DNA of 64,000 nt from Rhizobiaceae bacterium CPCC 101076 (GTDB lineage Bacteria; Pseudomonadota; Alphaproteobacteria; Rhizobiales; Methylopilaceae), in contig QDFX01000003.1 of NCBI GenBank assembly GCA_003347645.1, forward strand, positions 186,001 to 250,000, in the 5' to 3' direction. This document shows, in pieces, positions 11,147-25,566 of the stretch (its first letter is position 1; every line of letters starts with the position of its first letter). A program made the translations under genes and the position numbers. Below the pieces are notes generated by a model, which was not told where the DNA came from, searched no databases, and was given only the letters and a program-made list of their open reading frames with translations.

Positions 11147-12739
11147 TCAAAAGCCGTTTGCTGCGCCGTCGCTTCGGGGATCGGCTGCACCCTCGAGCAG
11201 GCCGGACTTTTGCCTGACGATGGCGCCAGCGTGCCCCATCGTCGATGTAAATTCGTCCAGCACTTCGACGTTGTGACCGGCAGCGCGAAGCTCTGAGATC
11301 ATATCCGGAGAAAAGCGGTTCTCCAGCTTCAAGGTGACGCTCTCCTCGCCCCAAGTCCGGCCGAGCAGCCAGCGCGGAGCGGTGACTGCCGTCTGCAATT
11401 CCTGGCCGAACATCGCGTAGCGACTGAAGATCGCCGCCTGTGTTTGCGGTTGGCCCTCGCCACCCATCGTTCCGTAGACCATGTCGCGGCCATCGTCGAA
11501 CCGGGCGAAGGCGGGATTGAGCGTGTGAAACGGGCGGCGGCCCGGCCTGAGCGCGCGGGGATTGTTGTCGTCCGAGAGGACGAAGCTGGCCCCCCTGTTC
11601 TGCCAGAGCACGCCGGTCTGCGGCAGGACGAGACCTGAGCCGAATTCGAAGAAGATGCTCTGGATGAAGCTCGCGGAGATACCGTCCTTGTCGATCGCGC
11701 CGAGCCAGACAGTGTCGCCGGCCAAGGGTGGCGCGGGCCAGGGCAGGGCACGGCCGGGGTCGATCTTATGGGCGAGCGAATCCAGAACCGAGCCATCAAG
11801 AAAAGCATCGGGCGCATGGGCCATCGCATCGGGATCGCCGATGATGCGATCACGGACGAGGAATGCCTGCTTGGTGGCCTCGACGAGCCCGTGGATATGG
11901 GAAAAGCCGTCCGCGTCCCGCACGCCAAGCCTGCTGAAGATGCCGAGGATCATCAGCGAGGACAGGCCCTGTGTCGGCGGCGGGAAATTGTAGAGCGTCG
12001 CGCCGGGCAGCTTCATCGACAGCGGCGCACGACTGCGGGCCCGATGCCGCTCCAGGTCTTCCCCGCGAACCGGTGAGCCACTGGTCTCAAGATCAGCCGC
12101 GATCTCGCGCGCCAGGGCTCCGGTGTAAAAGTCGTCGACGCCGTCGCGGCCGATACGGTGGAGTGTTCTGGCGAGCGCCGGCGATTTGAGCGTTTCGCCG
12201 GTCGCAGGCGCGCTACCGCCGGCCAGGAAGGCATCGACGAAGCCCGGCACGTCCCGCAGTTCGCCGAGTTTCGAGACAGTCAGCTCGTTCTGGCTCGCGG
12301 TGACCGGAAAACCCTCGTCGGCATACCAGACGGCATCTTCCACGAGTCTAGACAGAGGCAGCGCGCCGCCGTGTCCGGACGAGATGCGGAGCGCCTCACC
12401 CCAGCCTGAGACCGTCGCCGCCACGGTGTTCGCCGCGAGCGGACCGCGCGTCGGAATGCTCGCGAAGCCGCGTTCACGATAGTACGAAACGTCGGCCAGC
12501 GCCGCTGCCTGTCCGCAGGCCTCGACGGCCACGGGCTCCTGTCCGGGGGCGGCAATCAGCCAGAAGCCGTCGCCGCCGATCCCGTTCATATGCGGATAGA
12601 CCACCGCCAAAGCCGCCGCCATCGCGACAGTCGCCTCGATGGCATTGCCGCCATCGCGAAGGATGCGAAGCCCGGCCTCGCTCGCCAGGTGATGCGGCGA
12701 GGTGACCATGCCCCGCCGGGCGCGAACCGTGTTCAGCAT
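11147..12739 (-). CDS. Gamma-glutamyltransferase family protein (Ntn hydrolase)
   Basis: A 530-residue protein of the gamma-glutamyltranspeptidase family. The N-terminal part has the usual GMVTSPHHLAS and GGNAIEATVAMAAALAVVYPH segments and MNGIGGDGFWL; the autocleavage/nucleophile Thr is in AGDTVWLGAID near the middle, and YGTMGGEGQPQTQ follows. No clear signal peptide, so a cytosolic YwrD-like hydrolase or acylase is more likely than classical periplasmic GGT. The start at 12739 follows the TRAP large-subunit stop by 7 bp, so the enzyme is probably the last gene of the TRAP operon and acts on the imported compound. An upstream start at 12781 would overlap the permease. Confidence 0.85.
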   Translation of the reverse strand: MLNTVRARRGMVTSPHHLASEAGLRILRDGGNAIEATVAMAAALAVVYPHMNGIGGDGFWLIAAPGQEPVAVEACGQAAALADVSYYRERGFASIPTRGPLAANTVAATVSGWGEALRISSGHGGALPLSRLVEDAVWYADEGFPVTASQNELTVSKLGELRDVPGFVDAFLAGGSAPATGETLKSPALARTLHRIGRDGVDDFYTGALAREIAADLETSGSPVRGEDLERHRARSRAPLSMKLPGATLYNFPPPTQGLSSLMILGIFSRLGVRDADGFSHIHGLVEATKQAFLVRDRIIGDPDAMAHAPDAFLDGSVLDSLAHKIDPGRALPWPAPPLAGDTVWLGAIDKDGISASFIQSIFFEFGSGLVLPQTGVLWQNRGASFVLSDDNNPRALRPGRRPFHTLNPAFARFDDGRDMVYGTMGGEGQPQTQAAIFSRYAMFGQELQTAVTAPRWLLGRTWGEESVTLKLENRFSPDMISELRAAGHNVEVLDEFTSTMGHAGAIVRQKSGLLEGAADPRSDGAANGF

Positions 12740-12746
12740 CTTGGTT

Positions 12747-14073
12747 CTACCAGCCGATGGCTTCGGGGAGCCATGTGGCAAGGCCGGGGAAGGCGAATAC
12801 GAGGGTCAGCGCGATCAGCTGCAACACGATGAACGGCACGACGCCTTTGTAGATGTCGAGCGTGGAGACCTCGGGAGGCGCCACGCCGCGCAGGTAGAAC
12901 AATGCCCAGCCGAACGGTGGGGTGAGGAAAGAAGTCTGGAGAATCGTCGCGATCAACGCCGCGGCCCAGACGAGGTCGACGCCAGCCGACTGCATCAGCG
13001 GCAGGAACATCGGCACCACGATGTAGCTGATCTCGATCCATTCGATGAAGAAGCCGAGCACGAAGATGGATCGCCAGCATGAAGATGAGGATGCCGTTCG
13101 TGCCGCCCGGAACCATGCTGAACATGTCGTGCACCAGACGCTCGCCGCCGAGGCCGCGGAAGGAGAGCGCGAAGACCTGCGAGCAGATAAGGATGAAGAA
13201 CATCATCGCAGTGATGCGCGCGGTGGAGTTCACTGTCTCGACCAGCGTCTTGAGCGTTAGCCGGCCAGCGACGGCGGCGACGAGTATCGAACCGACGGCG
13301 CCCATGCTGGCGGCCTCGGTGGGGGCCGCAATGCCGCCGATGATCGAGCCGAGCACGGCGACGACGAGCGCGATCGGCGGCAGGCCGACCTTCAGCACCT
13401 TGAGCCAAAGCTCCTTGCGCGGCATCGCCTGGCGTTCTTCCAGCGGGATCGGTGGCACCTTTTCCGGCCAGATGATGCCGGAGGCGATGATCCAGGCGCA
13501 GAAGATCGCCGAGAGCAGCAGGCCGGGAAGGACGGTGGCGGCGAAGAGCGTGCCGACGGATTCGCCGAGGATGTCGGCCAGGAGGATGAGGATCGTACTC
13601 GGCGGAATGAGCTGGCCGAGCGTGCCCGAAGCGCAGATCGTCCCGCAGGCGAGGCTTTTGTCGTAGCCGCGGCGGAGCAGCGTCGGCAACGTAAGCAGGC
13701 CGAGGGTGACGATGGTAGCGCCGACGATGCCGGTGGTCGCTCCCATCAGCACGCCGACGAGCACGATTCCGAGGCCCATGCCACCGCGCAGGCTGCCGGA
13801 CAGATGGCCGATGACCTCCATCAGCTCGTCCGCCATTCGCGATTTCTCGAGCATCACGCCCATGAAGACGAAGAGCGGGATCGCGATCAGCGTGTAATTC
13901 GCGGTGACGCCGTAGATGCGCGCCGGCAGGAGGTTGAAAAGGCCGGTGCCGAAGCCGAGCCAGCCAAAGAAGAATCCCGAGATCGCGAGCGTCAGCGCGA
14001 CCGGAACGCCGACGAACAAAAGGACGAAGAAGGACGCGATACAGCCGAGGGCCAGAATTTCATTCCACGGCAT
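12747..14073 (-). pseudogene. dctM: TRAP transporter large permease DctM, frameshifted
   Basis: About 440 residues of a DctM-type permease with a dozen hydrophobic segments, readable from 14073. The frame is lost near 13061-13075, where coding continues in another frame as LGFFIEWIEISYIVVP, a standard DctM segment, to a natural stop at 12747. The local sequence reads MLA-I then a surplus base (or 4 bases, given a GATC-CATC near-duplication) before FVLGFF. Everything else in the gene is intact. Either a recent inactivating mutation or a sequencing error; with an intact DctP and DctQ beside it the latter is possible. Overlaps dctQ by 14 bp. Confidence 0.88.
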
Positions 14074-14611
14074 TGATGCTCACCGTGCCGCCGGACGTTG
14101 CGTCCGAGCCGCCGAAGAAGGGTTGAACCGTGCGCAGAACCCAGGCCAGGCTCTGCAGCGCGAGAAGCACGAAGCCGGCGGGAATGAGCGCCTTGAGGAT
14201 GAAGCGGTAGGGAAGGCCACCCGGGTCGGGCGAGCCCTCGCCGATGCGCCACGACTGCATGACGTAGGGCAGCGAGAGCTTCACGATGATCAGCGAGATC
14301 GTCAGGATCGACAGCGCCGAGAACAGATTGATCGCGTGCTGAACCAGGCGCGGCAGATAGCCGTAGAAGATGTCGACCTGGACGTGGCCTTCATGCTTGA
14401 TCGTATAGGCGATGCAGAGCAGCGTCAGCGGCGACATCAGGTGCCATTCGAGCTCCTGCATCGCGACCGATCCGGTGTGGAACAGGTAGCGAAGCAGGAC
14501 GTTCGTCGCCATCACCACGACCAGCGCGAAGCCGGACCAAGCGGCGATTCGGCCCGAGACCTCGACGATTGCGTCGAGGCCGTGGGCCCACTTTTCCAAT
14601 GTCTCGACCAT
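14060..14611 (-). CDS. dctQ: TRAP transporter small permease DctQ
   Basis: A 183-residue membrane protein with four hydrophobic segments and the family motif around MQELEWHLMSPLTLLCIAY, GHVQVDIFYG following. It bridges the binding protein to the large permease in Na+-driven uptake of organic acids. It begins 6 bp after the dctP stop and overlaps dctM by 14 bp. The solute is set by the TakP-like binding protein upstream. Confidence 0.9.
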   Translation of the reverse strand: MVETLEKWAHGLDAIVEVSGRIAAWSGFALVVVMATNVLLRYLFHTGSVAMQELEWHLMSPLTLLCIAYTIKHEGHVQVDIFYGYLPRLVQHAINLFSALSILTISLIIVKLSLPYVMQSWRIGEGSPDPGGLPYRFILKALIPAGFVLLALQSLAWVLRTVQPFFGGSDATSGGTVSINAVE

Positions 14612-14617
14612 GATGGA

Positions 14618-15697
14618 TCAGGCGCGGATCTGTTCTTGGTAGACGGCTTCCGAGATGCCGGCCCACTTGTCGTGCTTGGTCTTGAAGGCGGTGAACGAGT
14701 CGTAAACCTTCTTGATCTTCGGATCGCTGGCGGCGAGGTCGGAAAGCGTCTGCTTGGAAACCTCGCGGAGCTTCTCGACCACCGGACCCGGCAGCGGGCC
14801 GGCGATCACGCCTTCCTTGGCCACTAGTTCGTCAAGCGCGTCGGAATTGGTCGCCTCGCACCAGGTGTGACTCGTCACGACGCAGGCGGCGGCGGCGCTG
14901 CGGACGATCTCCTTCAGGTCGGCCGGAAGCGAGTCCCAGGCGGCCTTGTTGACGATCAGCTCGGTGACGTTGTTCGGTTCGTGCCAGCCGGTCGTGTAGT
15001 AGTATTTCGCCGCCTTCTGCAGGCCGAGGCGGCGATCCTGGAACGGGCCGACGAACTCCGCCGCGTCGATGACGCCGCGCTCGAGGGCGGGGAATATCTC
15101 GCCGCCCGGAAGCAGCTTCACGTCGACACCGAGCTTTGCATAGACCTTACCGGCGAGGCCGGGGATGCGCATCTTCAGGCCCTTAAAGTCCTCGACCTTC
15201 TCGATCGGCTTGCGGAACCATCCGGTCATCTGCACACCGGTATTGCCGAGCGGCATCGGGACGAGGTTGAACGGGGTGTAGAGTTCCTCCCAGAGGGCGA
15301 GGCCGCCGCCATGGTAGATCCAGGCGGTGTGGCCCTGGAAGTTCAGGCCGAACGGCACCGTGGTGAAGAACTGCGCCGCCGGCACCTTGCCGGCCCAGAA
15401 ATAGGAATTCGAGGCGTTCATCTCGACCGTGCCGGCTGAGACGGCGTCGAAGCCCTCGAAAGCCGGGATCAGCTCGCCCGCGGCGAAGTGCTGGATGTTC
15501 AGGCGGCCACCCGACATATTCTTAACGAGCTCGCAGAAATAGGTCGGGCTGCCGGGGCCGGTGACGTAGAACGGCGAGCCCGGACCGTAGGAATTGGTCA
15601 TCTTCCAGTTGAAGCTCTGCTGCGCCCGGGCGACGGCCGGCGCGGCGAGGGTTGCGGTTCCCGCGACACCCGCGGTGAGGAATTTACGGCGATCCAT
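14618..15697 (-). CDS. dctP: TRAP transporter periplasmic binding protein, TakP-like (2-oxoacid type)
   Basis: A 359-residue protein with an N-terminal Tat-like signal (MDRRKFLTAG, Ala-rich core, ARAQ cleavage region). MRIPGLAGKVYAKLG, GGEIFPALERGVIDAAEFVGP and a GWHEPNN segment correspond to the TakP group of TRAP binding proteins, which bind 2-oxo acids (pyruvate, 2-oxobutyrate and branched relatives) using a conserved Glu/Arg and Trp. The solute here is inferred, not known. AAAGGGA precedes the ATG. A 377 bp region separates it from the divergent AraC-amidase fusion, a likely regulatory pair. Confidence 0.9.
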   Translation of the reverse strand: MDRRKFLTAGVAGTATLAAPAVARAQQSFNWKMTNSYGPGSPFYVTGPGSPTYFCELVKNMSGGRLNIQHFAAGELIPAFEGFDAVSAGTVEMNASNSYFWAGKVPAAQFFTTVPFGLNFQGHTAWIYHGGGLALWEELYTPFNLVPMPLGNTGVQMTGWFRKPIEKVEDFKGLKMRIPGLAGKVYAKLGVDVKLLPGGEIFPALERGVIDAAEFVGPFQDRRLGLQKAAKYYYTTGWHEPNNVTELIVNKAAWDSLPADLKEIVRSAAAACVVTSHTWCEATNSDALDELVAKEGVIAGPLPGPVVEKLREVSKQTLSDLAASDPKIKKVYDSFTAFKTKHDKWAGISEAVYQEQIRA

Positions 15698-16074
15698 CTC
15701 GATCCCTTTCGTTCTGCGATGCTGCGACCGCAGCAGGACGTGTTTGACCGCGCCGTCCGAAGGACAGCGGTTCGGGTAGCGCATCCGGGATGCGCCCTGA
15801 GTTCTGTATTGGTGCCCGGCGAGGCGCCCCTGCCTCGTCGATGTGCAAGAAGTCTTGCAGGCTCTCTCGTCCGCCGCAATCCGTATCGGCCAAGAGAGGT
15901 CGGCGCTGGATTCACTTTCTTGTTCTAAAAAGAACAATCAGTTCAATATCTTATCGCTGATTGGCGCGCGACCGACGCCGCTCTGCGGCGGGTTTAGGCA
16001 AATTTTTGTGCGCGGTTCGTCAAGATGGCACGGAGCCTGCTAGGCAAAGTGGCAGCTTCTCCGAGTGCAGTCAG
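15698..16074. promoter_or_regulatory. Divergent promoter region with three inverted repeats
   Basis: No gene seen in these 377 bp between the TRAP operon and the AraC-amidase fusion. Three perfect inverted repeats stand out: GCGCATC-CGG-GATGCGC (15779-15795), TTGTTCT-AAAA-AGAACAA (15920-15937) and CGCCGC-TCT-GCGGCG (15976-15990). The middle one lies in AT-rich sequence and is the best operator candidate for the AraC-type regulator; the GC-rich ones may be leader hairpins. Confidence 0.45.
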
Positions 16075-18408
16075 ATGAACCGTCCGTTCGATCCCGTTTC
16101 CATCAGCGCCTTTCCCCGCGGCAAGCAGGAGGAAGCATGGCGTGCGACCTTGCGTTCGCTGTCGATCGTCTGCCGCCATCGCGACGAGGCGGGCTTCGAT
16201 TTCGGCGAGATCGCAACCCGTTCGGTGCCGACAGGAGCGACGGCCACCCTGCTGCGCTCGACGGCGCAGGATTTTGCCGGGCTGCCGGAGACCAAGGACG
16301 ACCGCATCCTGATCGGCTTCGTCCAGTACGGTCGCGGGCATATCGGCGACGGGGGCCGCCGGGTCAGCGAGTTCGCCGACGGCGACCTGTGGGTCTGCGA
16401 TGCCCAAACGCCGTGGTCGCTGCAATTCAGGAACGATTTCGAGCTTCTGCTGCTTCAGCTTCCGCGCGAGCGGATGGCAGGACGGATGGGACGCGCGCCG
16501 GTCATCCCCGGCACGGTGCTCGGGGAGACCGTCGCCGCCACCGCCGCGCGGCCGGTGATGCGGGCGCTCGCCAGCAATTTCGCGATGGCCGAGGACGGTG
16601 ACCTGATCGCGAGCGAGATCGCGATCACCGAACTCGTCCTGTCCTCGCTCTTGGCCGAAGCGCGGCCGGAGGAGGACAGCGCGACGCAGGTGCAGGCCGG
16701 TCATTTCGCCCGTGTCTGCGCCGTGGTCGAGGCGCGGCTGCGCGACCCGGACCTGTCGGTCGCCGATATCGCCAGGGAAGAAGGGCTGTCCCCGCGCTAC
16801 ATCCAGCGCCTGTTCGAGGGCCACGACCGCTCGTTCTCGGACTATGTCCGCCACCGCCGGCTGGAGCATTGCCGGCTCGACCTCGTCAACCCGCAGCATG
16901 CCGACCGCAGCATCGCCGAGATCGCCTTCCGCTGGGGCTTTCCCGACCAGGCGCATTTCAGCCGGGTGTTCAGCACGGCGTATGGCGCCTCGCCGCGTGA
17001 ATTCCGCAAATCGGCCCCGGAGCTGAGCGCGACCCGATGGACGCGCGGCCGGCCGCTGCATACCGGGTCGAGGCCGGGAACGAGGCCGGCTGCTCCGCCG
17101 ATCGAGGAAGCACCGGTCGCGGCGCTGTCTCGACCGTCGCCGCTGCCGCCGAGCACGCCGGAGCGGCATCATCTCGCGGTGTCGCGCGACACCGTCCATT
17201 GGGGCTATCTCAGCCGCTCGATTCCGCCGGTCCTGCGCGTCCGGCCGAACTCGGAAATCACCGTCGAGACGCTGACGCAGCACTCGTATGACGACCATGC
17301 GCGGATGATCGCGGGCGATGCGGGCGTGGAAAGCGTCTTCGCCTGGACGCGCGACTACAAGGCGGTCGATCGGCGCGGCGCGGGGCCGATGAACGCGACG
17401 ATCTTCGGCCGCGGCGCAGGCGAGGGGTTCGGCGTCCATATCTGCACCGGGCCGATCTACGTCCACGGCGCCGAGCCGGGCGACGTTCTGGAGGTGCAGA
17501 TCCTCGATCTCCGGCCGCGTCCCTGCGCCAACCCGGAATTCGCCGGCTATGCGTTCGGCAGCAATGTCGCCGCCGCCTGGGGTTACCATTACGACGACAT
17601 GCTGGACGGTCCGCGCACCCGCGAGATCGTCACGATCTACCGCACCGAGGTCGATGGCTCGTCCGGGTTCGCCGAGCCCGTCTACAGCTATCGCTGGGTG
17701 GCGCAGACCGATCCGTTCGGCGTGGTGCACGAGACGATCGACTATCCGGGCGTGCCGATCGATCGCTCGAAGGTGCGGGAGCGGCACGGCGTGATGGCGG
17801 GAATGCGCATCCCGATCCGCCCGCATTTCGGCTTTATCGCGGTGGCGCCGCGCGAGGCGGACATCGTGGATTCGGTGCCGCCCGGCTATTTCGGCGGCAA
17901 TGTTGACAACTGGCGGGCGGGCAAGGGTAGCTCGGTCTATCTGCCGGTCGCGGTGCCGGGCGCGCTGCTGTCGATCGGCGATCCGCATCTGGCGCAGGGC
18001 GACGGGGAGATCAGCGGTACCGCGCTCGAATGCTCGCTCACGGGTGACATCCGCGTGGTGCTGCACAAGCGCAACGAGACCGGAAAGCCCTTCCTCAACG
18101 GCCTGTCGAGCCCGCTGCTGGAGACGCCGGACGCCTGGATCGTCCACGGCTTCTCCTATCCCAACTATCTCCGCGAACTTGGCCGCAACGCGCAGTCGGA
18201 AGTGTTCAAGAAGTCATCGCTGGACCGGGCGCTGAAAAGCGCGTTCCGCACCGCGCGCAAGTTCCTGATGGAGCATTACGGCCTCGACGAAGACGAGGCG
18301 GTTTCGCTGATTTCGGTGGGGGTCGATTTCGGCGTGACGCAGGTGGCGGACGGCAATTGGGGCGTTCACGCCATCATCAGGAAAAGCATGTTTCCTCCAG
18401 CAGAGTGA
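16075..18408 (+). CDS. AraC-type transcriptional regulator fused to acetamidase/formamidase
   Basis: One uninterrupted 777-residue reading frame. Residues about 10-185 resemble the N-terminal ligand domain of AraC/OxyR-like regulators (GFVQYGRGHIGDGG, FELLLLQLPRERM). Residues about 209-315 are a complete double AraC HTH (DIAREEGLSPRYIQRLF and IAEIAFRWGFPDQAHFSRVF). A Pro/Arg-rich linker (about 316-362) leads to a full FmdA/AmdA amidase (about 363-775): HSYDDHARMIAGD, GPIYVHGAEPGDVLEV, PIRPHFGFI, GNVDNW and the GDPHLAQGDGE segment. The amidase releases ammonia from short amides. One protein could sense and hydrolyse its own inducer. It is divergent from the TRAP operon. Start chosen at 16075; an upstream in-frame ATG at 15961 is possible but poorly coding. 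Confidence 0.88.
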   Translation: MNRPFDPVSISAFPRGKQEEAWRATLRSLSIVCRHRDEAGFDFGEIATRSVPTGATATLLRSTAQDFAGLPETKDDRILIGFVQYGRGHIGDGGRRVSEFADGDLWVCDAQTPWSLQFRNDFELLLLQLPRERMAGRMGRAPVIPGTVLGETVAATAARPVMRALASNFAMAEDGDLIASEIAITELVLSSLLAEARPEEDSATQVQAGHFARVCAVVEARLRDPDLSVADIAREEGLSPRYIQRLFEGHDRSFSDYVRHRRLEHCRLDLVNPQHADRSIAEIAFRWGFPDQAHFSRVFSTAYGASPREFRKSAPELSATRWTRGRPLHTGSRPGTRPAAPPIEEAPVAALSRPSPLPPSTPERHHLAVSRDTVHWGYLSRSIPPVLRVRPNSEITVETLTQHSYDDHARMIAGDAGVESVFAWTRDYKAVDRRGAGPMNATIFGRGAGEGFGVHICTGPIYVHGAEPGDVLEVQILDLRPRPCANPEFAGYAFGSNVAAAWGYHYDDMLDGPRTREIVTIYRTEVDGSSGFAEPVYSYRWVAQTDPFGVVHETIDYPGVPIDRSKVRERHGVMAGMRIPIRPHFGFIAVAPREADIVDSVPPGYFGGNVDNWRAGKGSSVYLPVAVPGALLSIGDPHLAQGDGEISGTALECSLTGDIRVVLHKRNETGKPFLNGLSSPLLETPDAWIVHGFSYPNYLRELGRNAQSEVFKKSSLDRALKSAFRTARKFLMEHYGLDEDEAVSLISVGVDFGVTQVADGNWGVHAIIRKSMFPPAE

Positions 18409-19960: not shown

Positions 19961-20944
19961 TTAGTACTGCAGCTGAGGGTCCACGACATTCAGCAGGGGT
20001 TGTCCGGACCGAAGATTCACCAGGTTGCGAAAAACGAGATCGAGCGTTTTTGGCGTGTACTGCTCGGCGTCGTCCGACGAGCAATGAGGCGTGATGATCA
20101 GGTTGCGCACACTCCAGAGCGGCGACGATGGGGGCAGGGGCTCGGGGTCGAAGACGTCGAGAACAGCCGTGAGGCGCCCTTGCTCCAACTCGGCGCTGAG
20201 CGCGTCGTAATCGACGAGATCCGCGCGGCTGTAGTTCACGAGGCCTGCGCCGTCCTTCATCAATGCGAGTTCGTCCCGGCCGAGAAGCTGCTTGGTCGCG
20301 CCTGTCGACGGCGTCGTCATCAGAACGAAATCGGCACGGGGCAGCAATGTCCTCAACGCTTCGGGCCGATGCATCTCATGGACATGTGGATGCGGCTCTC
20401 CGCTCCGGCGGATGCCTATGACCTTGAGGCCGAAACGGTCGGCCCATTTCGCGGCGCCGCCACCGATATGGCCAACCCCGATGATCAGGACGGTCTTGCC
20501 GACGATTGAAGAACTGAACACCTGATCCCAGCGCGCATTGCGCTGGTTCGTCATGCTCTCCGGAACCCGGTTGTTGAGCATGAGCAGCGCCATGATCGTG
20601 TATTCGTCGGCCTTCTCGCCATGTACGCCGCGGCTATTGGTCAGCACTGCCCCCGAGGGCAGCCAGTCCAGCGGCATTAAATGGTTCACACCGGCTCCGT
20701 GAGCATGGACCCAGCGCAGGTTAGGCGCGCTTTGAGCCAGCGCCTTGTCGAAGCGCCAACCCATCAGCACGTCAGCAGTCTGCATCTCGCAGGCGAAGAC
20801 GTCGCCATCGTATCCAACGGTAATCCTGAGATCCGACAAGTCCGGATGTCTCGCGCAGGCCTGGGCGATCCGCTCCGGCGTCGCCTCGAAGACCGGGCCG
20901 AGCGCGCGATTGTTCTCGATGTGAAGATGGATCGGCCGGGACAT
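19961..20944 (-). CDS. D-isomer-specific 2-hydroxyacid dehydrogenase
   Basis: A 327-residue NAD(P)-dependent reductase. Rossmann motif GVGHIGGGAA, the catalytic Arg in NYSRADLVD, Glu in DVFDPEPLP and His in ITPHCSS are all present, giving the full Arg-Glu-His triad. It likely interconverts a 2-oxo and a 2-hydroxy acid made downstream of the ABC/ureohydrolase pathway (inference). The ATG at 20944 overlaps the DUF1989 stop (TGATG), so translation is coupled, and it closes the long - strand array. The 160 bp beyond it toward the heme oxygenase hold only a short tandem AAGCCAGCCAG repeat. Confidence 0.88.
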   Translation of the reverse strand: MSRPIHLHIENNRALGPVFEATPERIAQACARHPDLSDLRITVGYDGDVFACEMQTADVLMGWRFDKALAQSAPNLRWVHAHGAGVNHLMPLDWLPSGAVLTNSRGVHGEKADEYTIMALLMLNNRVPESMTNQRNARWDQVFSSSIVGKTVLIIGVGHIGGGAAKWADRFGLKVIGIRRSGEPHPHVHEMHRPEALRTLLPRADFVLMTTPSTGATKQLLGRDELALMKDGAGLVNYSRADLVDYDALSAELEQGRLTAVLDVFDPEPLPPSSPLWSVRNLIITPHCSSDDAEQYTPKTLDLVFRNLVNLRSGQPLLNVVDPQLQY

Positions 20945-21543
20945 CAGACGACCGAGAAGTGAGCATCTGTTGGCGTGCAGTTCACGCCATTCACGGGAAG
21001 CATGTCCTGCGGACACGAGGAGAAGACGACAACGCAGTCCATCTCAGCCCGCAAGGTTACTGAGCCGCCGGGCTTCGATGGCGGAGCGGCGAAGCTGAGC
21101 GCGCCGTCGGCGGATACCGGGACGTTCATGAACAGGTTGAGCGGGCTCGGTACCTCTGGCGATTCCAGGCCGATCGCGTGGAGGGCATCGTGCAGATTGT
21201 CGGTGCAGCTATCGTGATGTCCGACATGGCCGAGCTGCTCGTAGCGATAGCGGTCGCAGGCCGCCATGAGCATGTCGTGGATTCCGCCCGACGTGTCCTC
21301 GATGAGTGTCAGGATCGGCCTGCGGTGGTTCGTCAGTAGAGCATCGCCCACGGCGGGTATCAGCTTCAGGAGGCGTGCTCGCGTGTGCTCCATCGACATG
21401 AATTCCGAGAGATCGTCCGCATTGAATGCCCAGGTGTCGACGACCTGTTCGCCGTGCGTGTTCCGGACGATTACGGATTGTCCCGCTTTCAGACGGGCGG
21501 CGGTGCCCTTACGGGCGGGAATGGTGCTGAAATTGTCCGGCAT
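20944..21543 (-). CDS. DUF1989 urea carboxylase-associated family protein
   Basis: About 199 residues with the DUF1989 landmarks: early IPARKGTAARLKAGQSVIV, then a DTWAFNADD block, SMEHTRARLLKLIP, TNHRRPILTLIEDTSG, CDRYRYEQLG and a late SPLNLFMNVP. Conserved Cys, His and Asp residues suggest a metal site. These proteins accompany urea carboxylase and other urea or guanidine pathways; catalysis is unproven. It lies 2 bp after the ABC ATPase stop and overlaps the next gene. Together with the ureohydrolases in the same array it points to urea-forming catabolism (inference). Confidence 0.82.
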   Translation of the reverse strand: MPDNFSTIPARKGTAARLKAGQSVIVRNTHGEQVVDTWAFNADDLSEFMSMEHTRARLLKLIPAVGDALLTNHRRPILTLIEDTSGGIHDMLMAACDRYRYEQLGHVGHHDSCTDNLHDALHAIGLESPEVPSPLNLFMNVPVSADGALSFAAPPSKPGGSVTLRAEMDCVVVFSSCPQDMLPVNGVNCTPTDAHFSVV

Positions 21544-21545
21544 GA

Positions 21546-22373
21546 TCACCCTGTGATTTCGGATACGGAGCCGCTCGCATTGCGCGACTTCCATGTGTCG
21601 AGGAACTGCGCGAGGCGGGGGCTCTCGGGTTTCGAGAACAGGCGCTGAGGCGGTCCTGCTTCCACGATCGAGCCGCCGTCCATGAAGATCACGCGATCGG
21701 CGACTTCGGCTGCGAAACCCATTTCATGGGTGACGACGACCATGGTCATTCCCTGCGAGGCGAGCTGACGCATGACCTCGAGGACTTCGCCGACGAGTTC
21801 CGGATCGAGCGCCGAGGTCGGCTCGTCGAAGAGGAGGATCGAGGGGTTCATTGCAAGCGCGCGGGCGATGGCGACGCGCTGTTGCTGGCCGCCCGAGAGG
21901 CGGTCCGGATAGGCGTCCGCCTTGTGGGCGAGGCCGACCGTTTCCAGCGCCTCTCGTCCGATCTTCTCGGCTTCCGCGCGGGTCATGCCTTTGACGATGC
22001 GCAGGGCGGCAATGACATTGCCGAGCGCCGTCATGTGAGGCCACAGATTGAACTGCTGGAAAACCATTCCGACGTTGCGCCGGACATTGGCGGTCTGGAC
22101 CTCGGAATCCTTCTTCCGCGTGCCATCCGAGATCGAGTATCCGAGCAGGCGGCCCTCGACGTAGATCTCGCCCTCATCATAGGTCTCCAGGAAGACCATG
22201 CAGCGCAGCAGGGTGCTTTTGCCCGAGCCGGACGGTCCGATGACGCAGACGCGCTCGGACCTTTCGATATCGAGATCCACGCCCTTCAGGACCGTATTCG
22301 AACCGAACGTCTTGCCGACGCCGCGCAGCTGGATGGCGGCGTCACGCGCTCCAATGTCCCTCAACACGCTCAT
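21546..22373 (-). CDS. Polar amino acid-type ABC transporter ATP-binding protein
   Basis: A 275-residue ABC ATPase with Walker [11 protein letters not shown]-loop [11 protein letters not shown], signature LSGGQQQR, Walker [14 protein letters not shown] and switch His (VVTHEM). The [19 protein letters not shown] pattern is that of GlnQ/HisP-type importers. It overlaps the upstream permease by 4 bp and is followed by DUF1989 within 2 bp. It energises the two permeases and binding protein coded just upstream. Confidence 0.92.
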
Positions 22374-23020
22374 GCGCGGACCAGCCTTCTCTCGATTTGC
22401 CGGCTACCGAACGCGACCATTGCAGTTACGGACCAATAGGCGAGGCCAAGCAGCAGATAGGGTTCGACGACGACGAAGGTCTCGCTGACGATGCGCGTTG
22501 TCGTGAGCGTCAGTTCCGGCACGGTGATCACGGACAGCACGGCGGACTCCTTGATGATGCTGATCATCTGGTTTGTCGTCGGCGGAACGACGAGCCTCAG
22601 CATCTGCGGCAATTCGATATGACGGACGATCTTGAGCTTGGTGAAGCCGAGCATGCGAGCGGCTTCGACCTGGCCCGGCGGCACGGCCTCGAACCCCGCA
22701 CGGAATATCTCGGCGAGATAAGCTGCGGTATAGAGCGACATGCCGAGCACGCCGGCTTGATACGAAGTCGGCAGGAAGCCGAAGGTCGGGCCGCCATAAT
22801 AGAGGATGAAGAGCTGCAGCAGCAGCGGCGTGCCGCGCCAAAGCTCGATGTAGGAGCGGATCAGCCAACGCAGCGGCAGCCAGGGCAGGCGCGCGAGCAG
22901 CGCGACGCCGAGGCCGAGCAGAAGACCCAGGACCAGCGACACCGCGCAGATCTCGATCGTGACGAGGAGACCCCGTCCGATGGCCGGCGCGTATTCGGCG
23001 ATAGCGGTGAAATCGATCAT
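22370..23020 (-). CDS. Polar amino acid ABC transporter permease
   Basis: A 216-residue HisMQ-type membrane protein, about five transmembrane segments, with the [21 protein letters not shown] coupling loop (EAA motif) and the typical [20 protein letters not shown] segment. Overlaps the ATPase by 4 bp and the second permease by 4 bp. Forms the heterodimeric channel with that second permease. Confidence 0.92.
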
Positions 23021-23673
23021 GCGGGCTTCGGCGTCAGCCGCCGTTCGAGAAAGCGTCCGAACGAGGACACCGCCGTCGACATCAGGAAATAGAAGAGGCC
23101 GCAGACGAGATAGGTTTCGAGCGGACGATAGGTCGAGGAGACGATCTGCTGGCTGATGCGCAGGAGTTCCGTCACCGCGATGATAGACAGGAGACCGGAA
23201 CTCTTCACGACGTCAACGGCCTCGTTGGTCAGCGCCGGGATCGTCACGCGGAAAATCTGCGGCAGGAAGATGTGGCGCGCAATCTGGAGACGGCTGAAGC
23301 CGAGCATCCGCGCCGCCTCGGCGTGTCCGGGAGGAACGGTGAGAAAGCCGGCGCGATAGATTTCGGTCTGGTAGCCGGCTGTATTGAGCGTGAGGCCGAG
23401 GAGAGCGGCCGTGAGGGGCGTCGTTTCCACGCCGAAGTTCGGCGGGACGTAGAACAGGATCAACAGGACGACGAGGAGTGGCAGGCCGCGAAACATGCTG
23501 ACAAACACCGCCGCCAGCGCCCGAAGGAAGATGTTCCGCGACAGCCGCGCCGCACACATGACGAGGCCGAGCGCGGCGCCGCAAAGCAGCGCCGCAGCCG
23601 AAATCCAGATCGTCGTCTGGGCGCCAGCCGCCATTCGCGGCAGCTGGGCTATGACGGCGGTGAAATCCAGCAT
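23017..23673 (-). CDS. Polar amino acid ABC transporter permease
   Basis: A 218-residue HisMQ-type permease paralogous to its neighbour: SMFRGLPLLVVLLILFYVPP and an [21 protein letters not shown] coupling loop. About five membrane segments. It starts 17 bp after the binding-protein stop and overlaps the other permease by 4 bp. Confidence 0.92.
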   Translation of the reverse strand: MLDFTAVIAQLPRMAAGAQTTIWISAAALLCGAALGLVMCAARLSRNIFLRALAAVFVSMFRGLPLLVVLLILFYVPPNFGVETTPLTAALLGLTLNTAGYQTEIYRAGFLTVPPGHAEAARMLGFSRLQIARHIFLPQIFRVTIPALTNEAVDVVKSSGLLSIIAVTELLRISQQIVSSTYRPLETYLVCGLFYFLMSTAVSSFGRFLERRLTPKPA

Positions 23674-23690
23674 CGACCTCTATTCCCCAA

Positions 23691-24536
23691 TCACATCGTC
23701 GGTTCGCCGATGTCGTCGGGCATGTCGTAAGTGAAGCCGATCCACTTGGTCTGAAGCTCGGACATGGTGCCGGCTTTCTTGAGCTCGAGGATACCCTTGT
23801 TCAGGAGCGCGATCAGGCTCGCGCTGTCGTCTTCCTTGCGGGCCGCCCAGCCGAAATAGGTCTTCGGGCCGATCGTCTCCTTCATGTACTCGAACGTCTC
23901 CGGCTTGCTCTTCACGAGAGGAGCGACGTTGGCGCCGGACTGCGCGACGGCCTTGATGCGGCCGGCGGCGAGATCGGCATAGGCCTCGTCGAAGCCGACA
24001 TATTCCTTGATCTCGGAGACGCCCTTGCCGCCTTCCTTCTCGAGCTTGGCGTTGAATTCCTTCAGGACCTGGAGCTGCGCGGCGCCGGTCTGGCTGCCAA
24101 CGGGCTTGCCGGCGATGTCGGCCGGGGTCTTGATCGAGTCGTCGCCGGTCTTCTTGAGAAGGCCGGTGGTCGCCTCCGCGATCGGCGTCGTGAACGTGTA
24201 TTTCTCGGCGCGGGCCTTGGTGATGGTCACGGCCGTGATGACGACGTCGTACTTCTTGGCGCTCAGGCCCGGCAGGATGCCCTGGAACGGCAGGTCGAGC
24301 TGCTTAACCTTCACGCCGGGCAGGTACTTGTCGAACACCAGCTTCATCATTTCGGGGCCGTAGCCGACGATCTTGCCATCCTCGACATATTCGAACGGCT
24401 GGAAGCGGGCTTCGGTCGCAACGACGATCTCGCCCTTCTTCTTGATGTCGTCGAGCAGGTCGGCCTTCGCCGCCGTCACGCCGAACACCAGTCCGGCTAC
24501 GGCGAGGGCCATAGAATTCTTCAGCAGCTTGGACAT
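23691..24536 (-). CDS. Polar amino acid-type ABC transporter substrate-binding protein
   Basis: A 281-residue periplasmic protein with a Sec signal (MSKLLKNSMALAVAGLVFG, then TAAKA). KGEIVVATEARFQPFEYVEDGKIVGYGPEM is the classic family 3 solute-binding opening, and the YDVVITAVTITKARAEKYTFT segment supplies ligand contacts, normally including an Arg that binds an alpha-carboxylate. Placed directly after two ureohydrolases, the ligand may be a guanidino acid such as arginine or a relative (inference). GGAGAG precedes the ATG; an upstream in-frame start would spoil the signal. Confidence 0.9.
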   Translation of the reverse strand: MSKLLKNSMALAVAGLVFGVTAAKADLLDDIKKKGEIVVATEARFQPFEYVEDGKIVGYGPEMMKLVFDKYLPGVKVKQLDLPFQGILPGLSAKKYDVVITAVTITKARAEKYTFTTPIAEATTGLLKKTGDDSIKTPADIAGKPVGSQTGAAQLQVLKEFNAKLEKEGGKGVSEIKEYVGFDEAYADLAAGRIKAVAQSGANVAPLVKSKPETFEYMKETIGPKTYFGWAARKEDDSASLIALLNKGILELKKAGTMSELQTKWIGFTYDMPDDIGEPTM

Positions 24537-24615
24537 GGAAACTCTCCGTCTTGGGGTTTGGAGATCCACGCAGCAAAGCGGCGCGAATGCCGACCGTCCG
24601 CTGCGAGGAAGGGTG

Positions 24616-25566
24616 CTATCGGGCATCGAGAATCCGCCCAATCAAATTGAGAAGGATCTGCGCCGCGAGGATCGACGTGACGCCGGCCGGATCGTATTCG
24701 CGGGCGACCTCGACGAGATCGACGCCAACGATCTTTCCGCGCTTGGCCAGGCCCGCGAGAAGCTCCAGCACCTCGTAGTACATGAAGCCGCCATGGCTCG
24801 GCGTGCCGGTGCCAGGCGCGATCGACGGATCGAAGCCGTCGATGTCGATCGTCACGTAGTAGCGTGAGCCGGCGGGCACGCGCTCCAGCACGGCATCGAC
24901 ACCGAGCTTCCGGATCTGGCGGACGCTGAGGATGTCCGAACCCATGCGGCGCGCATCCTCGTAGCCCTCGCGAGCGGTCGAGGAGACATTACGGATGCCG
25001 AACTGTGAGAGGCCCATGACATAGGGCTTCTCGGCCGCGCGGCGCATCGGGCTGCCATGACCGTTCTTCACGCCGTGGCGCTCGTCGACGAAGTCGAGAT
25101 GCGCATCGATCTGGACGATGTGGATCGGCCCCTGGTCGTAGAAGGCGTTGATGCAGGGGATGTTGATCGAATGGTCGCCGCCGAGGACGACCGGGATCGC
25201 TCCGGCTGCGAGGATCTTGCGGACGCCGAGTTCGATATTCGCGTGGCTGCGGGTCGTGTCGGTGTGGATCATGTCCGCGTCGCCGATATCGACGATGCGG
25301 GTTGTCTCCGCCGGCAGGTAGACGGCGTCGTCCTCATGGTCGTAGGCGCCGGCGTGGCCGAACGAGAACAGGGTCGACGCCTCGCGGATGGCCCGTGGAC
25401 CGGAGCGGGAGCCGGAGCGCCATTGGGTGCCAAGATCGAACGGTGCGCCGAGCACCGCGACATCGGCCTGGATGTTGTCCCAGTCCAAACACAGCGGGTA
25501 TTTGCCGAACGTGCAAATGCCGACGAAGGGAAGGTCGAGGCGGCCGCTTTCATATCCGTGAGACAT
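24616..25566 (-). CDS. Ureohydrolase (agmatinase/arginase family), paralog 1
   Basis: A 316-residue binuclear metal hydrolase that releases urea from guanidino compounds. All metal ligands are visible: GGDH (129-132), DAHLD (154-158), Asp241 and Asp243 in TIDIDGFDP. The substrate loop GVKNGHGSPMRRA departs from typical agmatinase (HGTPFRRA in paralog 2), so a different guanidino substrate is likely. It sits 12 bp after paralog 2. Agmatine, guanidinobutyrate, guanidinopropionate or guanidine are all open; sequence alone does not settle it. Confidence 0.88.
   Translation of the reverse strand: MSHGYESGRLDLPFVGICTFGKYPLCLDWDNIQADVAVLGAPFDLGTQWRSGSRSGPRAIREASTLFSFGHAGAYDHEDDAVYLPAETTRIVDIGDADMIHTDTTRSHANIELGVRKILAAGAIPVVLGGDHSINIPCINAFYDQGPIHIVQIDAHLDFVDERHGVKNGHGSPMRRAAEKPYVMGLSQFGIRNVSSTAREGYEDARRMGSDILSVRQIRKLGVDAVLERVPAGSRYYVTIDIDGFDPSIAPGTGTPSHGGFMYYEVLELLAGLAKRGKIVGVDLVEVAREYDPAGVTSILAAQILLNLIGRILDAR

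Follow-up and report, generated by a model that had tools for sequence, protein, structure and literature searches.

In AraC/XylS regulators, the helix-turn-helix (HTH) usually lies C-terminally, and the DNA sites bound are direct repeats with a spacing of about two helical turns. Among MocR/GabR regulators, an aminotransferase-like domain acts as the effector sensor. Passages of three papers (PMC6917764, PMC4944035, PMC5734734) describe MocR/GabR-type regulators as single proteins that combine an enzyme-derived domain with a DNA-binding domain; in those of PMC6917764 and PMC4944035, a winged HTH is joined to the aminotransferase-like domain, and GabR changes when it binds GABA. BzdR is presented, in passages of PMC3602430, as a case in which an enzyme was turned into part of a transcriptional regulator. 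For the acetamidases/formamidases, passages of a sequence survey (PMC5052560) report three clades, with many copies in Bradyrhizobium and Starkeya, and make no mention of regulator fusions. Open-licence PubMed Central literature yielded, among the matches listed, no paper on a fusion of the kind described below, and a PubMed Central search for a structure paper on the FmdA/AmdA family likewise gave none among its listed matches.

The window, the whole 64,000-nucleotide stretch of DNA analysed here, contains a gene that joins an AraC-family regulator to an FmdA/AmdA domain. We favor, at a probability of roughly 0.58, the reading that its product is a one-component AraC-family regulator with a recruited FmdA/AmdA domain as the substrate-sensing module, possibly with residual hydrolysis.

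Architecture of the fusion protein

The gene and its parts are as follows.

16075..18408, + strand: AraC-FmdA/AmdA fusion gene, 777 aa (ORF, Pfam, phmmer, fold match)
16075..17034, + strand: regulator half, aa 1-320, with AraC_binding_2 at aa 73-174 and HTH_18 at aa 232-312 (Pfam; fold match to CuxR 5nla)
17041..17163, + strand: linker, aa 323-363, Pro/Arg-rich (model mostly of low confidence; pLDDT below 50 at 315-360)
17164..18399, + strand: FmdA/AmdA half, aa 364-775 (phmmer, alignments; Q402, core residues kept)

An earlier, sequence-only reading had described a single 777-codon frame encoding an AraC-type regulator and an acetamidase/formamidase. This description holds: the frame has zero internal stops, and its openness extends upstream to a TTG at 15961. 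The ATG at 16075 corresponds, residue 1 to residue 1 in tblastn, to that of three orthologues (L012, L014, L034), and the remaining three orthologous regions have an ATG at most 5 alignment columns from it. The Pfam domains expected from that reading, AraC_binding_2, HTH_18, and FmdA_AmdA, were all found. HTH_18, a double HTH, scores 76.1 bits against a cut-off of 33.6, and FmdA_AmdA (PF03069) scores 95.3 bits against a cut-off of 27 in two stretches, the best at residues 600-755. The HTH is not C-terminal, since roughly 410 residues of enzyme domain come after it. Residues 364-775 align by phmmer with residues 73-481 of 3b9t, the nearest solved relative (E 2e-163), and the enzyme half is therefore full length. 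The full-length AlphaFold model has a mean pLDDT of 69.7 and a pTM of 0.50, which makes it good for fold search and not for domain arrangement or the placement of residue 402. In that search, the model matches 3b9t with a TM score of 0.89 by target length, and the best fold match of its regulator half is the AraC-like activator CuxR (5nla).

Shortly past the HTH, the linker carries an RGxP motif (aa 324-327, window 17044-17055) that recurs in 38 of 40 fusion linkers, which are otherwise variable; of the two linkers that lack it, one holds a run of N. As a general AT-hook the motif was rejected, RG[RK]P occurring in only 25 of the 40. A few candidates for an internal start that would release the enzyme were seen, and none is common to the fusions.

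Distribution and origin

Homologues of the fusion are found in both Alpha- and Betaproteobacteria, and the carriers are many soil and marine bacteria, among them Ancylobacter, Bradyrhizobium, Mesorhizobium, Actibacterium, Tropicimonas, Sinorhizobium, Rhizobium, Novosphingobium, Paraburkholderia, Caballeronia, and Variovorax. With the best two candidates per genome scored, a fusion across both halves was found in 19 of 397 sampled genomes of the window's order, 44 of which have any match at E ≤ 1e-80. Samples of the class and the phylum, which overlap, gave 4 of 385 and 8 of 398 genomes, respectively. Sixteen plasmid records showed at least 80% cover, and 12 of these were fetched. In public records, the protein is labelled either "acetamidase/formamidase family protein" or "AraC family transcriptional regulator".

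A single origin of the fused enzyme halves is supported by a tree built from 109 enzyme sequences by a quick method without bootstrap: all 40 form one side of one branch (SH-aLRT 95), and the nearest free sequence is L030 (support 82). The tree left out L032, L039, L040, and L063 as well as hits covering fewer than 330 query positions. Its 65 free and 40 fusion rows contain near-duplicates (e.g., L018 = L088, L071 = L084, L082 = L086), and L029 is counted as a fusion across its N gap.

Among 28 genomes with only the free enzyme, none has the regulator half as a separate gene beside it (E ≤ 1e-12; AraC matches in 16, judged by position). L029 gave the appearance of a split homologue, but a run of N sits in its linker; in L096 (Rhizobium johnstonii TP60), annotated as two genes, the break falls inside the regulator half and not at the domain junction; and a TAA reported within the G092 copy is its normal stop. 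The linker of the window's gene holds no stop, and homologues are not always split. The idea that two genes were merged through a sequencing or assembly error has nothing found for it in the fusion, the nearest point being a one-base difference in the adjoining dctM that could be an error; it is already refuted by the same domain order in fusions from many independent assemblies, and we regard it as barely conceivable.

Genomic settings and free paralogues

The fusion gene faces an operon on the opposite strand.

14618..15697, - strand: dctP, TakP-like TRAP solute-binding protein (Pfam; PDB relatives)
14060..14611, - strand: dctQ (Pfam)
12733..14073, - strand: dctM, out of frame after about residue 334, with an extra base near 13069 (Pfam; comparison with relatives)
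11147..12781, - strand: gamma-glutamyltransferase (GGT) family gene (Pfam)

A divergent TakP-type TRAP operon ending in a GGT gene had been read from the sequence alone, and the order dctP-dctQ-dctM-GGT agrees with it; the PDB relatives of DctP include 2hzk (267 bits), a TakP entry. Relative to five of five relatives, the window's dctM has a one-base insertion near 13069, so that its last part is out of frame, and genuine C-terminal sequence resumes in another frame (ORF 12747-13061). The extra base could be a sequencing error or a real break. Downstream of the fusion, window 19961-24641 (- strand) holds a hydroxyacid dehydrogenase, a DUF1989 protein, and an operon for an amino-acid-type ABC transporter (transporter read by eye); the cluster of ABC genes was not found in L011-L014 or L034.

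The survey of recurrence that the earlier reading had proposed separates three settings: (A) the fusion is divergent from dctPQM-GGT, as in the window, L011-L014, L034, and G092; (B) its divergent partner is a free enzyme of this family that shares about 56-60% identity with the fused half; and (C) it occurs with an amino-acid-type ABC transporter and a leaderless free enzyme, joined by RidA in Rhizobium-type loci. Setting B includes the second fusion copy of the window's own genome (C2:33693-35993; a free paralogue lies at C2:31932-33197), Bradyrhizobium, Mesorhizobium, and Rhodobacterales; the N termini inspected for it bear a twin-arginine, Tat-like motif (read by eye). Four loci have other layouts (L093, L097, L123, L129).

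A free family enzyme is present in all 46 long-flanked loci outside setting A (17 + 8 + 21, a few genomes being repeated). It lies about 7 kb off in L097 and is of a more distant type (38-39%) in L093, L123, and L129; the count leaves out L032, in which the contig end cuts the fusion, and L030, which is a free enzyme. Eighteen of the 19 fusion genomes of the order sample also hold a close free enzyme. The exception is G092: there, the fusion alone matches at E ≤ 1e-60 (4 candidates scored), and no free close relative was found. All five setting-A genomes searched through their loci have a second fusion and a free enzyme as well; three second fusions from Ancylobacter are 51-53% identical over residues 97-776 or less. 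Because the free enzyme accompanies the fusion in 46 of 46 non-TRAP loci and mostly lies elsewhere in setting-A genomes, the fused copy is rarely the sole catalyst.

Other neighbors in these genomes include three more FmdA/AmdA homologues within about 7 kb at L010 (C35:128000-146000 of the window's own genome), a DUF3830 gene beside a Paraburkholderia fusion locus (L093 6815-7240), and GGT-like matches near two other fusions (L110 5951-7285, 27%; L022 4181-5752, 37%).

The enzyme half: conserved core and altered residues

The sequence-only reading had called the enzyme apparently complete. Length and core residues bear this out, and one otherwise invariant histidine does not. The core residues of classical FmdA, represented by four homologues, are all present in fusions: H455, N609, D611, D636, H638, Q641, D643, E645, E652, and H765. 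Among 65 free relatives, a set that excludes the four classical FmdA rows, 62 positions reach a conservation of at least 97%, and 48 of these are kept in all fusions. Position 402, which aligns with residue 111 of the 3b9t chain sequence by counting along the phmmer alignment, differs: all 65 free enzymes (Proteobacteria, Actinomycetota, Bacillota) have His, and 38 of 40 fusions, among them that of the window, have Gln; the two exceptions are one sequence (L018 and L088), which keeps His. A second set gave Gln in 21 of 22 fusions versus His in 21 of 21 free enzymes, with His kept in L129; it partly covers the same genomes, as 6 of its 22 fusions repeat first-set genomes and L131 repeats L124. 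At position 623, Leu occupies 40 of 40 fusions and Tyr 40 of 40 near free enzymes. The fusions that keep His402 (L018 = L088 and L129) are natural controls for the His-to-Gln change. In L124 and L131, which are the same record, the free enzyme has Thr at the position of His765, conserved in the others compared.

These residues bear on a bifunctional arrangement in which the AraC N-terminal domain senses the inducer and a fully active amidase half destroys it, giving the built-in feedback suggested by the sequence-only reading, whose ideas of a small-amide ligand and of ammonia sensing are speculative. With every core residue retained, the domain could be an ordinary active enzyme. In the classical FmdA homologues (4 of 4), position 402 is Ala or Gly and position 623 is Leu, the alignment there being uncertain, so the changes seen in the fusion need not kill catalysis; purifying selection on the fused enzyme half points the same way, as does G092 with its single fusion. 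On the other hand, Gln402 in 38 of 40 fusions means that normal catalysis cannot be assumed, and the free enzyme is normally present too. On balance, we judge full bifunctionality unlikely, although it is the rival to be taken most seriously.

Fused enzyme halves have dN/dS values of 0.06-0.16, indicative of purifying selection. In all 10 pairs compared, the fused half has a higher dN than its free partner enzyme; the pairs share species and so are not independent. Selection also informs a second alternative, in which the enzyme half is a structural passenger, a module for dimerisation or stability, and the AraC part alone senses and regulates. The AraC part is complete by itself, the linker is variable save for RGxP, and in Bradyrhizobium pairs its conservation roughly equals or slightly exceeds that of the fused enzyme half. 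Against this reading, the core enzyme residues are kept in the fusions; in the window's lineage, the enzyme half is the more conserved one (dN/dS 0.09-0.16 vs 0.16-0.30 for the regulator half), and the 28 genomes with only the free enzyme offer no regulator-only homologue beside it. The passenger reading is improbable.

The conserved upstream site

Two elements lie between the divergent genes.

15997..16023, + strand: putative operator GGCAAATTTTTGTGCGCGGTTCGTCAA, two CAA boxes 22 bp apart (conservation 7/7, matrix tests)
15920..15937, no strand assigned: dyad TTGTTCTAAAAAGAACAA of the sequence-only reading (present, not conserved)

The dyad, TTGTTCT/AGAACAA, exists at the place where it was first seen and is the only perfect copy in the genome. 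It is absent from six orthologous regions, and across 153 fetched loci the exact dyad occurs in none other than four copies of the window locus; it is thus not a likely operator and was rejected as such.

The site at 15997-16023 ends 52 bp before the ATG of the fusion and starts 300 bp upstream of the dctP start. Its pattern is CAA-N4-TTGTGCGC-N7-CAA, a 22-bp repeat, and GRCAARTTTTTGTGCGCNNNTCGTCAA is kept in 7 of 7 aligned orthologous regions, the window's included. For 14 of 25 loci from the other settings (8 of 18 after thinning close relatives), a matrix made from the seven orthologous sites has its best whole-locus site within the regulatory region, compared with an area expectation of 0.70 and with a mean of 0.75 and a maximum of 6 for 200 column-shuffled matrices. 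Applied to 19 further loci, the same matrix succeeds in 11, against an area expectation of 1.27 and a mean of 1.3 for 300 shuffles (maximum 6); a second matrix, to which sites of the first test set were added, succeeds in 12 of 19 (shuffles, mean 1.2, maximum 5). The test on these 19 loci left out L126, which belongs to the training set, L127, which is of the same genus, and L131, which shares its record with L124. In 11 of the 25 loci and 8 of the 19, the best match of the seven-site matrix lies outside the regulatory region; of its 11 successes, eight come from related Rhizobium-type loci, and the one in L124, with a score of 0.2 and a position inside a gene, looks spurious. In 27 chosen sites, the spacing of the two CAA boxes is 22 bp, and self-similarity is highest at that offset (4.63 of 9 positions; at most 3.04 at other offsets), which is descriptive because the sites were chosen with the matrix.

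Sites precede the ABC transporter operon in L095, L100, and L110-L117 and, in setting B, occupy the gap that separates the divergent genes. The L100 site, in front of the operon of ABC transporter and enzyme genes, is some 6 kb away from where the fusion starts. A conserved site before the transporter-enzyme operons of relatives supports the view of the fusion as a working regulator. Within the genome of the window, exact copies of the core CAARTTTTTGTGCGC are confined to the regions preceding the two fusions, and with up to two mismatches the core is not commoner than a backward control (4 matches vs 7). A one-mismatch site under a relaxed pattern, at C8:80432, precedes a gene that resembles a small heat-shock protein (read by eye). 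Seven Bradyrhizobium loci (L015-L017, L019, L024, L027, L029) have two opposite-facing operator-like sites between the free enzyme and the fusion.

Proposed mechanism

In the sensor reading that we prefer, a free amidase-like enzyme would have been recruited as the C-terminal FmdA/AmdA domain of an AraC-family regulator. This domain would sense the inducer, presumably an amide or amino-acid-like compound, through binding in the enzyme pocket coupled to DNA binding, and may slowly hydrolyse it. The fusion protein itself is the probable binder of the conserved direct repeat with its 22-bp period, and it would activate rather than repress. It would control its own gene and probably the divergent TRAP-GGT operon, while in relatives the targets would be the free enzyme or the amino-acid-type ABC transporter-enzyme operon. 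Among the points against this scheme, the window's site is much nearer the fusion than dctP, and an ordinary AraC_binding_2 domain is also present and could sense a ligand alone. A more specific version, which we entertain tentatively, is that the His-to-Gln change in a THH motif retuned the amidase to bind the inducer and turn it over only slowly, such that occupancy of the active site, whether functional or crippled, sets the transcription of uptake and hydrolysis genes; the switch would be self-resetting, with a free paralogue in most genomes.

Comparison with known systems

The closest enzymes are of the 3b9t type, which takes in the Methylobacillus flagellatus structure and free enzymes of the Tat type or from ABC operons; over the enzyme half, identity is 55% to 3b9t and about 53-60% to the close free enzymes, and the core residues agree. 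Unlike 3b9t-type enzymes, the fused domain sits behind an AraC regulator, has no leader, and carries Gln for His402 and Leu for Tyr623. The free paralogue is often only one gene away from the fusion. The proposed sensor and the enzyme could be compared residue by residue, which would make the step from catalyst to sensor directly testable.

On the regulator side, the fusion resembles FeaR and CuxR of the AraC/XylS family in its AraC_binding_2 domain and double HTH, CuxR being the best fold match; the FeaR model scores 127.8 bits on the fusion, below that model's cut-off of 199. It differs from both in that the HTH is internal, with the enzyme domain of about 410 residues after it. If the sensor reading is correct, genes now labelled only by enzyme or regulator family would gain a function, and the operator would be ready for use in a biosensor once the ligand is identified. 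The fusion regulators are apparently a widespread and unstudied class.

Like BzdR, the fusion is an enzyme made part of a transcriptional regulator. BzdR has a shikimate-kinase-like domain, and its DNA-binding and enzyme families differ from those of the fusion. The likeness to MocR/GabR lies in an enzyme-derived domain that is fused to a DNA-binding domain and, as proposed for the fusion, serves as the effector sensor for catabolic genes. The difference lies in the parts: MocR/GabR combines a GntR winged HTH with a PLP aminotransferase fold, neither of which Pfam finds in the fusion, whereas the fusion has an AraC-type HTH followed by the enzyme, plus a separate AraC ligand domain. The best reading is that the fusion works like MocR/GabR but is unrelated to it; if so, it would be a further case, separate from MocR/GabR, in which a DNA-binding regulator acquired a complete enzyme as its sensor.
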